Source of the DNA: Aestuariivivens insulae
GTDB lineage: Bacteria > Bacteroidota > Bacteroidia > Flavobacteriales > Flavobacteriaceae
Direction: 5' to 3'
Assembly (NCBI RefSeq): GCF_022662195.1
Contig: NZ_JAKMCS010000020.1
Span: 1 to 56,184 of the forward strand
Length of the DNA stretch: 56,184 nucleotides
Shown here: piece by piece, positions 40,354 through 47,056 of the stretch
Layout of the letters: each line of letters begins with the position of its first letter
How positions within the stretch are numbered: position 1 is the stretch's first letter
Notes under the pieces: generated by a model
Database searches by the model: none
What the model was told of the DNA's origin: nothing
What the model saw: only the letters and a program-made list of their open reading frames with translations
Program-made: the position numbers and the translations under genes

Positions 40354-41094
40354 ATGATTTTAAGAGCCGAAAATTTAATGAAGTCCTACAGCGGACGAAA
40401 AGTAGTAAAGGATGTTTCCCTAGAAGTTAAACAAGGGGAAATCGTTGGACTTCTGGGCCCCAATGGTGCAGGAAAGACCACATCGTTCTATATGATTGTT
40501 GGTTTAATAAAACCCAATGGAGGCCATATCTTTCTTGATAACACTGAAATCACAAAATATCCCATGTATAAGCGTGCCCAAAACGGTATTGGGTATTTAG
40601 CACAGGAAGCTTCGGTATTTAGAAAATTAAGTATTGAAGACAATATTTTAAGCGTATTGCAGCTTACCAAATTGAGCAAAAAAGAGCAGCACCTTAAAAT
40701 GGAATCGCTTATAGAAGAATTTGGATTGGGGCATATTCGCAAGAACCGTGGTGATTTATTATCAGGTGGTGAGCGTCGCCGTACCGAAATTGCGCGTGCA
40801 TTGGCTACAGACCCAAATTTTATTTTACTAGACGAACCTTTTGCCGGGGTAGACCCCGTGGCTGTTGAAGATATTCAACGTATCGTGGCCCAGCTTACCA
40901 AAAAGAACATTGGCATCTTAATTACCGACCATAACGTACAGGAAACCCTTGCCATTACAGACCGAACCTATTTAATGTTTGAGGGTAGCATCCTTAAAGC
41001 TGGCGAACCCGAAGAACTGGCTAACGATGAGATGGTTCGTAAAGTGTATTTAGGACAGAATTTCGAGCTGCGTAAGAAGAAGATTAGGGATTAA
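40354..41094 (+). CDS. lptB: LPS export ABC transporter ATPase LptB
   Basis: A 246-residue ABC ATPase. Walker A is GPNGAGKTT (35-43), the signature is [15 protein letters not shown] (about 136-150), Walker B is [12 protein letters not shown], and the switch histidine is in LITDHNV. It powers extraction of lipopolysaccharide from the inner membrane with LptF/G. It lies downstream of kdsD and tatC, an arrangement conserved in Bacteroidota. The last gene before the repeat array. Confidence 0.95.
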
Positions 41095-41181: not shown

Positions 41182-41871
41182 TGTCATTCCTGCGTGTCAC
41201 ACTGAGCCTGTCGAAGTGAAGGCAAGAATCCACAACTCACAACACTATTAAGATTGACCTGTCATTCCTGCGTGTTACGCTGAGCTTGTCGAAGTGTAGG
41301 CAGGAATCCACATTAATAAACATCATTAAAATTAACTGTCATTCCTGCGTGCCACACTGAGCCTGTCGAAGTGAAGGCAGGAATCCACAACCCCATCTCA
41401 TTCAAAAACAATAGCTTCACCAAGCTTTATTTATAATATTATTCTTAGTTTTAGCACTGCTTGTCATTCCTGCGTGTCACGCTGAGCCTGTCGAAGCGCA
41501 GGCAGGAATCCACATTCATAAACATCATTAAAATTAACTGTCATTCCTGCGTGCCACACTGAGCCTGTCGAAGCGGAGGCAAGAATCCACAACTCACAAC
41601 ACTATTAAGATTGACCTGTCATTCCCGCGCGTTACGCTGAGCCTGCCGAAGCGGAGGCAAGAATCCACAACTCCATCTCATTCAAAAAACAATAGCTTTA
41701 CCAATCTTTATTTGTAATATTATTCTTAGTTTTAACACTGCTTGTCATTCCCGCGTGTCACACTTAGCCTGTCGAAGCGAAGGCAGGAATCCACATTCAT
41801 AAACATCATTAAAATTAACTGTCATTCCTGCGTGTCACGCTGAGCCTGTCGAAGTGAAGGCAGGAATCCAC
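41182..41871 (+). repeat. Array of eight 52-bp palindromic repeats with reused spacers
   Basis: Eight 52-bp units in the same orientation start at 41182, 41260, 41337, 41462, 41539, 41617, 41743 and 41820. Each runs from TGTCATTCC to ATCCAC; the outer ATTCCTGC pairs with GCAGGAAT in most units. Spacers occur as only three types, in the order A B C B A C B (25-26 bp for A and B, 73-74 bp for C), so this is not a CRISPR. The array ends 18 bp before the GIY-YIG gene. It accounts for most of the 795-bp gap after lptB. Confidence 0.95.
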
Positions 41872-41889
41872 TTGTTAGCCATAATACTT

Positions 41890-42201
41890 ATGTACAAAAC
41901 CATACACCAATACTACCTATACATTTTAACCAATAAAAGAAATGGCACATTATACATTGGTGTTACAAACAATTTAGAACGAAGAATGTTTGAACACAAA
42001 AACAAACATATTGAAGGCTTTACCCAAAAATACGGTTTAAACCAATTGGTCTATTTTGAAACCTACCAATATATAAACGATGCCATTAAAAGGGAAAAGA
42101 ACATGAAAAAATGGAAAAGGCAATGGAAAATTAAACTGATTGAAAAAGAAAATCCAAATTGGCATGATCTTTCTAAAGATTGGACTTACCTTATCGAATA
42201 A
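41890..42201 (+). CDS. GIY-YIG endonuclease family protein flanked by palindromic repeats
   Basis: A 103-residue protein (longer frame from 41854 starts inside the last repeat, so I chose the ATG at 41890). It shows the GIY-YIG core as YYLYILTNKR...LYIGVTNNLERRMFEHKN (about 8-44, Y-x-Y and Y-I-G) with Arg in LERR, and a C-terminal half containing YINDAIKREKNMKKWKRQWK. Family members cut DNA and are found in homing endonucleases, UvrC and small stand-alone forms such as YhbQ. A direct array of palindromic repeats stops 18 bp before the start, and an inverted copy begins right after the stop codon. The gene appears to be the cargo or helper of those repeats. Confidence 0.85.
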   Translation: MYKTIHQYYLYILTNKRNGTLYIGVTNNLERRMFEHKNKHIEGFTQKYGLNQLVYFETYQYINDAIKREKNMKKWKRQWKIKLIEKENPNWHDLSKDWTYLIE

Positions 42202-42229
42202 TGGATTCCAGCCTGCGCAGGAATGACAA
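42202..42229 (-). repeat. Inverted simple copy of the array repeat, directly after the GIY-YIG stop
   Basis: Read on the minus strand it is TTGTCATTCCTGCGCAGG followed by CTGGAATCCA, the palindromic core of the array repeat without the inner 24-bp insert. It starts at the base after the TAA stop. Confidence 0.85.
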
Positions 42230-42242
42230 TCAAATCACTCAT

Positions 42243-43133
42243 TCATTCTCTTTTTTTTCCTTTGAATAGTTTGATAAAAACTTTAAAAAGTTTCACCACT
42301 AAAAGCGCCACACACCCTACCAACAGACCAAGTATAAAGTCTTTTATAAAGCCAGGGAAGCTTTCCAAAACATGATGAAAATAGGGTATTTTATGCCCAA
42401 AGATACCTCCGGCCACCAATAACAAAGCAATAGTCCCTATTACCGAAAGGCTTTTTATCACCCAAGGCAAGGCATTAATTAAAAATTGCCCTATAACTTT
42501 TAAAGCACTATTCTTATTGGATGCATGTAAAGTAACCAATTTTAAACCTAAATCATCCATTCTAACAATTAAGGCTACAATACCGTAAACGCCAACAGTA
42601 GCAATAATTGCCACAATAGACACTACCAAAACCTGAAATAAAATAGACTTGCCCAATACCGTACCCAAAGCAATAATTACAATTTCTACAGATAGGATAA
42701 AATCCGTAAAAATAGCCGACTTAATTTTTTGCTTTTCGATTTCTAACACATGCTCTTCATCACCTATATCACCAATATGCACTTCTTTTTCATGATCATG
42801 AGGCACAAAAAAATCATATATTTTTTCCACACCTTCAAATGCCAAATAAACCCCTCCCAAGACCAATGCTAAGGTAACAGCCCATGGCGCAAAAGCGCTT
42901 AATAAAAAAGCTATAGGGAGTATGATAAGCTTGTTAAGAAAGGAGCCTTTAGTTATGGCCCATAATACAGGAAGCTCTCTTGAAGACACAAAACCTGTTG
43001 CCTTTTCGGCATTCACTGCCAAATCATCTCCTAAGATACCTGCTGTCTTCTTAGTTGTAATCTTACTCATTACTACAACATCATCCATTAATGTAGCTAT
43101 ATCATCCAACAATGCAAAAAAACCAGATGCCAT
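42243..43133 (-). CDS. DUF808 (YedI-like) membrane protein
   Basis: A 296-residue membrane protein with the DUF808 opening MASGFFALLDDIATLMDDVV and KTAGILGDDLAVNAE. About six hydrophobic helices follow, with FVPHDHEKEV in a loop and a basic C-terminus. Function unknown, some relatives are annotated as putative transporters. It follows pssA by 10 bp on the same strand, so they are likely cotranscribed. Confidence 0.85.
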   Translation of the reverse strand: MASGFFALLDDIATLMDDVVVMSKITTKKTAGILGDDLAVNAEKATGFVSSRELPVLWAITKGSFLNKLIILPIAFLLSAFAPWAVTLALVLGGVYLAFEGVEKIYDFFVPHDHEKEVHIGDIGDEEHVLEIEKQKIKSAIFTDFILSVEIVIIALGTVLGKSILFQVLVVSIVAIIATVGVYGIVALIVRMDDLGLKLVTLHASNKNSALKVIGQFLINALPWVIKSLSVIGTIALLLVAGGIFGHKIPYFHHVLESFPGFIKDFILGLLVGCVALLVVKLFKVFIKLFKGKKRE

Positions 43134-46635: not shown

Positions 46636-46700
46636 GCTTTAGCTTTATTACTGAAGACAAACCAACCCCAACACCACAAACAACAAGAGCAAACTGAGCA

Positions 46701-47056
46701 CCGAACACCGAACACTGATCACTGCAAACTGAATACTGAATACTGATCACTGAATACTGAATACTGCCCACTGCTCCCGTCTCCCGTCATCGGTCATCCG
46801 TCATCAATCACCCAACCTATATTCACTCGTCAGGCCACCAAATACTGCAAACTAAACACTGAATACTGAGACTGAACACAGAATACCGAACACTGATCAC
46901 TGCAAACTGAATACTGAATACTGAATACTGAACACTGAACACTGCTCCCGTCTCCCGTCATCGGTCATCCGTCATCAATCACCCATCATCACTCACCCAA
47001 CTTACATGCGCTCAACAACACGTCAAACACTGAACACCGAACACCAAACACTAAAC
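46701..47056 (+). repeat. Degenerate heptamer repeat array with a larger duplication
   Basis: Heptamers (CTGAATA, CTGATCA, CCGAACA, CGTCATC) run through the 423-bp gap before the exopolysaccharide genes. Within it, 46708-46814 (107 bp) and 46886-46985 (100 bp) share the same order of units, from CCGAACA to AATCACC plus CA, and differ by exactly one 7-bp unit (15 versus 14). No gene is seen in this interval. Confidence 0.9.

Follow-up and report, generated by a model that had tools for sequence, protein, structure and literature searches.

In the flavobacterium Aestuariivivens insulae, a small GIY-YIG endonuclease gene is enclosed by palindromic repeats of opposite orientation, with hardly any DNA to spare on either side. 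The initial annotation of this locus, made from the sequence alone, took it for a possible REP/RAYT-like system with a different nuclease, which may cut or spread its flanking hairpins. This raises the question of whether gene and hairpins form one mobile unit, or whether they are together for another reason.

The GIY-YIG gene lies between a hairpin array and an inverted hairpin

The window, i.e., the whole stretch of 56,184 nucleotides that we analyzed, corresponds to contig C12 of a genome assembly of 33 contigs and 4.23 Mb. The features of the locus are as follows.

40354..41094, + strand: left neighbor, an ABC-transporter ATPase (presumably LptB-like), which served for site comparison
41182..41871, + strand: array of eight direct 52-nt CGTC-type (TGTC-tagged) long-loop hairpins (repeat comparison; two units folded)
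41820..41871, + strand: gene-proximal hairpin with its TGTC tag away from the gene, the left end of the minimal element (sequence, folding)
41890..42201, + strand: GIY-YIG nuclease gene, ATG to TAA (Pfam PF01541, invariant residues, structure model)
42202..42228, - strand: 27-nt short-loop inverted hairpin with its TGTC tag away from the gene, the right end of the element (sequence, folding)
42243..43133, - strand: right neighbor, a membrane protein (which we take to be DUF808-like), which served for site comparison

The eight array units start at 41182, 41260, 41337, 41462, 41539, 41617, 41743, and 41820, with periods of 78 and 281, and pairs of units are identical at 43 to 50 of their 52 positions. 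Each unit starts with TGTC and continues with ATTCCTGC or a closely similar sequence, a long loop, GCAGGAAT, and CCA. The last unit ends at 41871, leaving a gap of 18 nt to the ATG at 41890, and the gene encodes 103 amino acids up to the TAA at 42199 to 42201, directly behind which the inverted repeat TGGATTCC...GGAATGACA spans 42202 to 42228. The frame around the gene is therefore as first described as regards the eight 52-nt repeats, the 18-nt gap, and the inverted repeat at the TAA, but the downstream copy measures 27 nt and not 52: it is a short-loop form that keeps the TGTCATTCCTGCG and GGAATCCA ends and lacks about 25 nt of the middle of the 52-nt units. By folding, it has the same design as these units, its loop being short and its stem imperfect. 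The element thus begins with a CGTC/TGTC hairpin upstream of a small GIY-YIG gene and ends with an inverted hairpin downstream of it, and the tags of both hairpins face outward. The eight-unit array is a tandem amplification local to the window, and a comparable array is absent from most of the 80 named homologous loci described below; the locus is best explained as one copy of the element, amplified locally on its left side.

Two further repeat features were observed in the window. The loop of each 52-nt unit (41182 to 41871) includes a further sequence that resembles a palindrome, CTGAGCCTGTCGAAG or one closely similar to it, possibly a REP nested within a REP, and tandem repeats of 7, 14, and 21 nt (ACTGAAC-like) lie between two long open reading frames (ORFs) at 46693 to 46999.

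The protein matched the Pfam GIY-YIG family PF01541 with an E value of 5.3e-16; GIY-YIG and T5orf172 were the families above the cutoff, and Y1_Tnp was not among them. It carries the GIY..YIG motif together with the Arg and Glu of the GIY-YIG superfamily, and Y10, Y21, R31, and E68 (numbered from the residue after Met), which have catalytic roles, are invariant in an alignment of 33 sequences, namely, the window protein and those of 32 of the 80 named loci. The structure model (pLDDT of 89.7) was closest in Foldseek to the solved folds of UPF0213 (1zg2, E = 4e-4, the only match with an E value of <0.001) and Slx1 (E from 0.007), followed by a weaker match to the N-terminal domain of UvrC. Of 13 pairs tried, eight were measurable and gave dN/dS ratios of 0.015 to 0.41, six of them below 0.1, and the protein is therefore under purifying selection. 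Its best-scoring named homolog, from Flavivirga aquimarina, is 87% identical. Other identities were considered and rejected: PADLOC gave no match to a defense system, the phage collection contained no match and the PHROGs matches were weak and mainly to homing endonucleases, and the only two Rfam matches to structured RNAs were both below threshold.

Close homologs are mostly framed by outward-facing hairpins

We gathered homologs by protein alone, in four sets and ten whole genomes of other lineages, and located the gene in 196 of 198 loci for the scoring of outward-pointing tags. Close homologs were mostly framed in the same geometry rather than free of such repeats: among the 80 named loci, which are mostly from Flavobacteriaceae but also from Phycisphaerales, Sedimentisphaerales, Omnitrophota, Daviesbacteria, Desulfobacteraceae, Emcibacter, and others, 62 of the 74 that could be scored had outward tags on both sides, compared with 3 of 150 control ORFs. 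In the wider sets, outward tags were found at 10/29 loci of other Flavobacteriaceae, 12/29 of other phyla, 7/29 of alphaproteobacteria, and 6/28 of Bacteroidota (controls, 0/15, 0/24, 0/21, and 0/18, respectively), showing that framing is far from universal there. To relate framing to identity with the window protein, we counted as framed any locus with outward tags or an inverted flank match of at least 12 nt, after dropping 23 of the 196 loci as duplicates or for flanks shorter than 100 nt. The framed fraction was 45/51 at ≥75% identity, 29/40 at 60 to 75%, 34/66 at 50 to 60%, 3/7 at 40 to 50%, and 0/9 below 40%. Since framing falls with identity, the association is a property of a single GIY-YIG subfamily and weakens beyond it. 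Nor are the repeats as frequent beside random genes, given that by the same definition only 5 of 228 control ORFs were framed.

Conservative clustering places the 79 located named loci in 32 genomic contexts, and clustering by same locus places them in 53. Outward tags occur in at least half of the members in 27 of the 32 conservative contexts and in 39 of 48 scored contexts, so the pattern does not reflect one inherited locus. At L108, L135, L138, L142, and L073, from several genera, the element occupies one shared operon position, between genes that we take to be trpB and trpA, which suggests a recurrent or old insertion point within the operon. A plasmid collection contained 34 records with a match to the gene, nine of which we examined. 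In Sinorhizobium meliloti, Rhizobium sp. CIAT894, and a Sphingobium plasmid, the gene lies between matching inverted hairpins; in Azospirillum lipoferum plasmid AZO_p3 (L299), it lies between sufB and sufC with one REP pair per side; and in Neisseria gonorrhoeae and Planktothrix, it lies amid CGTCATTCCCGC-type and TGTCATTCTGAG-type repeats, respectively. Among these nine records, no hairpin pair was seen beside the gene in R. tumorigenes, Sinorhizobium sp. C101, and Photobacterium.

A separate observation concerns GIY-YIG genes of another subfamily (37 to 39% identity) at L184, L185, and L186, loci with a tRNA gene (Pro, Asp, and Pro, respectively). At L185, the last 15 to 18 nt of tRNA-Asp recur beyond the GIY-YIG gene. 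A second, tRNA-linked type of GIY-YIG element is possible.

The framing hairpins are CGTC-tagged REPs

According to the passages of Di Nocera et al. (2013; PMC3733652) on which we draw, CGTC-tagged REPs have an unpaired CGTC (often TGTC or CCTC), a stem of 8 to 9 bp with complementary A/T at its first two positions, a loop of 4 to 5 nt, and a tail near CCA, and they occur mostly in head-to-head pairs. They are described there from five phyla, include Neisseria dRS3, Rickettsia RPE-4/6, and rhizobial repeats, and "apparently lack a dedicated transposase" (PMC3733652). Of the 231 tags flanking GIY-YIG genes, 182 are followed by a stem with at least 7 of 8 pairs that begins exactly at the AT after the tag, compared with 85 of 520 control tags elsewhere in the same loci. 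Loops of 4 nt (134 stems) or 5 nt (20 stems) account for 154 of these 182 stems, and the flanking hairpins comprise 39 distinct arm sequences. In the window, all nine units have a TGTC tag and a CCA tail; many relatives have CGTC or TGTC, and the CCA tail is common among them by inspection. The repeats thus match the definition of CGTC REPs, save for the loops of about 28 nt in the eight array units of the window.

The two ends of an element tend to match each other

Hairpins differ widely in sequence between the alphaproteobacterial loci. There, the mean longest inverted match between flanks was 14.5 within a locus versus 7.4 between loci, a difference reached in 0 of 10,000 permutations; the corresponding counts for the other three homolog sets were 0, 0, and 12 of 10,000. 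In three of the four sets, matches between flanks in the same orientation, which were not permuted, exceeded the inverted matches in mean length (13.1 versus 10.9, 17.0 versus 10.3, and 11.5 versus 9.6), showing that the flanks resemble each other in part through direct repeats rather than inverted ends. Because of this excess, we searched for direct duplications beside the element (see below).

Among paralogs in seven genomes, ends matched in 12 of 40 comparisons within an element versus 6 of 220 between elements (P = 3.5e-7). In genome G044, no two of the seven paralogs adjoin the same type of hairpin or repeat, and the inverted ends of three of these paralogs clearly match. Protein and hairpin similarity were correlated (Mantel r = 0.55, n = 95, 0 of 2000 permutations), a value that still contains shared ancestry.

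The hairpin-framed block behaves as an insertion at two sites

To describe the element as a block, we used 91 deduplicated cases from the 196 loci that had both tags and at least 100 nt outside them. Their length from tag to tag was 337 to 515 nt, with a median of 396 nt. At L114 of Psychroserpens luteolus, the element (2439 to 2844) lies between two 27-nt copies of the target (93% identical) that abut both tags, and a congener (93% identical over the query) has a single 27-nt target with neither REP nor gene. Simple loss is unlikely at this site, because it would have had to remove exactly one target copy. At the alphaproteobacterial L197, the element lies between two genes that are adjacent in relatives. 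A match was found in 55 of 69 genomes, and of the 20 orthologous loci that we examined, 3 are filled (L197 included) and 17 are empty, with the sequence resuming within 4 to 83 nt. In most of seven empty junctions inspected the flanking genes abut or overlap, and none of the seven contains a REP pair. At these two closely studied sites, the block of hairpin, gene, and hairpin behaves as an insertion, which supports the initial annotation. At the site of the window itself, the junction of one congener (L260) is compact and free of repeats, and another (L263) has two REPs in the opposite order and no gene.

Direct duplications flank 18 of the 91 elements (between-locus rate of 0.8% at a score of ≥36). 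Several of these are long (80 to 309 nt), contain REPs, or lie in tandem arrays and therefore may be segmental duplications; L117 was left out as a clean duplication because its neighbors are tandem paralogs. The sole direct duplication with a matching empty site is that of L114. As for the features of insertion sequences and MITEs, the element has inverted ends, duplications were detected at only 18 of 91 copies and with an empty site at one, and Pfam detected no known transposase domain.

These sites bear on the alternative that the gene encodes a homing endonuclease that inserts into preexisting REP doublets, with the hairpins as its target and not its ends. Gene-less outward-facing REP doublets are indeed common, and the weak family matches beside Pfam GIY-YIG are to group I intron or homing endonucleases. 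At L114, however, the empty site contains a single target copy and no REP at all, which excludes insertion of the gene into a preexisting REP pair at this site, and the seven inspected alphaproteobacterial junctions are likewise devoid of a REP pair. In addition, paralogs within one genome adjoin different hairpin types, the window copy is intergenic, and the 79 loci represent at least 32 distinct contexts. We therefore consider this alternative very unlikely.

The hairpins could also be attenuators or terminators that are carried along with the gene by ordinary horizontal transfer, without any transposition. Their position near the start and stop codons would suit such a role, and the proximal upstream hairpin could influence translation; against this, many copies of these hairpins are not located next to the gene, the duplicated target at L114 stops exactly at the tags, and the hairpin sequences vary while pairing and tag persist. 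A purely regulatory origin of the arrangement thus seems very improbable.

Gene-less hairpin pairs and their association with the nuclease

In five of eight genomes, one of them covered in part, neighboring exact hairpins no more than 130 nt apart had their tags outward in at least 29 cases and inward in at least 3. Among the matches listed for the source genome, neighboring hairpins were outward in 7 cases, inward in 0, and in the same direction in 10, the latter all within the two amplified arrays. A length of 63 to 81 nt from tag to tag was found for 25 of 34 outward pairs within 250 nt, with middles that are variable except in arrays; these regions were picked for having doublets and are thus unsuited to orientation counts. 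No clear target duplication was found at gene-less doublets, except for two members of tandem arrays. At L294 (G544:C45:116875-118886), we observed five REP doublets of 139 to 142 nt in tandem, with conserved middles and a spacing of about 300 to 330 nt.

The exact hairpin was present in 13 of 14 genomes with a homolog of ≥60% identity (mean of 8.8 copies) versus 31 of 135 others (mean of 1.1), a comparison that rests on one exact hairpin in genomes related by descent and is without phylogenetic correction. The exact hairpin occurs 11 times in genome G096 and 16 times in G131, neither of which has a homolog at an E value of ≤1e-10; both may contain orphan repeat populations or another mobilizer.

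In the 4.23-Mb source genome, the 13-mer TGTCATTCCNGCG from the end of the repeat (at most 1 mismatch) occurs 66 times, versus 5 times for a control with the reversed pattern. This genome has 18 GIY-YIG matches. A second gene, 91% identical to that of the window (C11:592865-593170, minus strand), is enclosed by the same repeats in the same manner; distant paralogs at C33 and C2 lie amid other repeat families, and one at C28 is flanked by decayed hairpins. Of the last three, only that at C33 has outward tags on both sides. Of 12 further GIY-YIG genes of this genome, only two have such tags.

It is conceivable that another enzyme, a RAYT or an insertion sequence transposase, moves the REPs and that the nuclease is a domesticated or host-beneficial passenger, e.g., a hairpin-cleaning nuclease that limits REP damage. 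The many repeats of the gene-free genomes G096 and G131 fit such a scenario, as does the presence of Slx1, a structure-specific nuclease, among the nearest solved folds, and the source genome has two matches to Y1 transposases. One of these two is, however, interrupted by stops, and no TGTCATTC was found near either; a lone CGTCATTC lies about 120 nt from the broken one, but the second arm of a hairpin is missing. Moreover, paralogs in one genome lie beside different hairpin families, some with matching ends, which fits pairs of enzyme and target and not a general cleaner. A passenger role thus has very little probability in our view.

DISCUSSION

What can be observed directly is the geometry of gene and hairpins, its recurrence in several phyla, the tendency of the two ends to match, the presence or absence of the whole block at orthologous sites, and one clean 27-nt duplication. 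From these sequence comparisons, we think it probable that the locus represents an autonomous REP element moved by its own GIY-YIG nuclease, with the gene-less REP pairs as nonautonomous derivatives. Together with its framing hairpins, the GIY-YIG gene apparently forms a mobile unit that is present in several bacterial phyla, and its product is a strong candidate for the enzyme that has been missing for the CGTC hairpin repeats.

In the mechanism that we propose, the nuclease would recognize its own hairpin family, as a DNA hairpin or a cruciform, perhaps handling branched DNA in a manner analogous to Slx1, and would cut or nick at or beside the tag. Two offset cuts of the target strands followed by gap filling could then give rise to the target duplication, and the gene-less REP pairs (mostly 63 to 81 nt from tag to tag) would be mobilized in trans. 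More tentatively, such elements may constitute a separate class of bacterial transposable elements, about 400 nt long, with a GIY-YIG nuclease of about 100 amino acids as their sole protein and CGTC hairpins as their ends, that duplicate tens of nucleotides of target, are the source of CGTC REPs in several phyla, and whose enzymes and hairpins codiversify into many orthogonal pairs; this broader view we hold to be possible, though somewhat less likely than not. To our knowledge, no DNA transposon that relies solely on a GIY-YIG nuclease has been described. The occurrence of a small nuclease beside CGTC hairpins in several phyla, often matched to its hairpin, makes the question of the missing transposase directly testable. 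Should the element indeed be moved by this nuclease, it would rank with the smallest mobile DNA units that are autonomous and would offer many naturally distinct enzyme-hairpin pairs.

Among known systems, GIY-YIG homing endonucleases of the I-TevI type share the catalytic domain with the window protein. They differ in that no intron or intein was seen here, the 103 amino acids leave no room for a DNA-binding extension, and the element occurs in many unrelated contexts with terminal hairpins of its own. The small GIY-YIG proteins of the UPF0213/YhbQ type are alike in size and fold, as reflected in the nearest solved structure, 1zg2, but distant, with 26% identity in the aligned part. The nine GIY-YIG loci scored at <40% identity, which may include UPF0213 proteins, lack framing hairpins of this kind. 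Penelope-like retroelements also have a GIY-YIG nuclease that serves a mobile element, but a reverse transcriptase is absent from the ∼400-nt unit described here. In the open-access literature, i.e., outside preprints and most subscription journals, we found no paper that links GIY-YIG proteins to REPs and no match for GIY-YIG together with "extragenic palindromic"; the portion of PMC9465073 that mentions both GIY-YIG and RAYT merely lists them in a gene table.

The CGTC REP superfamily, as characterized in the cited passages of PMC3733652, is alike in its tag, its 8-bp stem starting with AT, its loop of 4 to 5 nt, its CCA tail, and its paired units. S. meliloti, A. lipoferum, and Neisseria, which are named there, have members of the window gene's family beside such hairpins in our data. 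The differences are that no dedicated transposase is reported there, whereas a gene is linked to the hairpins here, and that the loops of the window array reach about 28 nt.

The closest parallel in organization is the RAYT/TnpA-REP system with its REPINs, in which one small enzyme gene is likewise framed by inverted REPs and many gene-less pairs lie elsewhere in the genome. The enzyme is a Y1/HUH transposase there and a GIY-YIG protein here, and the tag is GTAG there and CGTC or TGTC here. Furthermore, several paralogs per genome are found here, and at least one insertion duplicated 27 nt of its target, whereas target duplications are, as far as we know, absent from the IS200/RAYT world. The chemistry at the target is probably different from that of REP/RAYT. 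The framing of the homologs and the insertion behavior at two sites support the original idea of a REP/RAYT-like system with a different nuclease, to which the CGTC type of the REPs and the duplication of a target can now be added: the unit works like a REP/RAYT pair, but, lacking the enzyme that defines a RAYT, it is not one.
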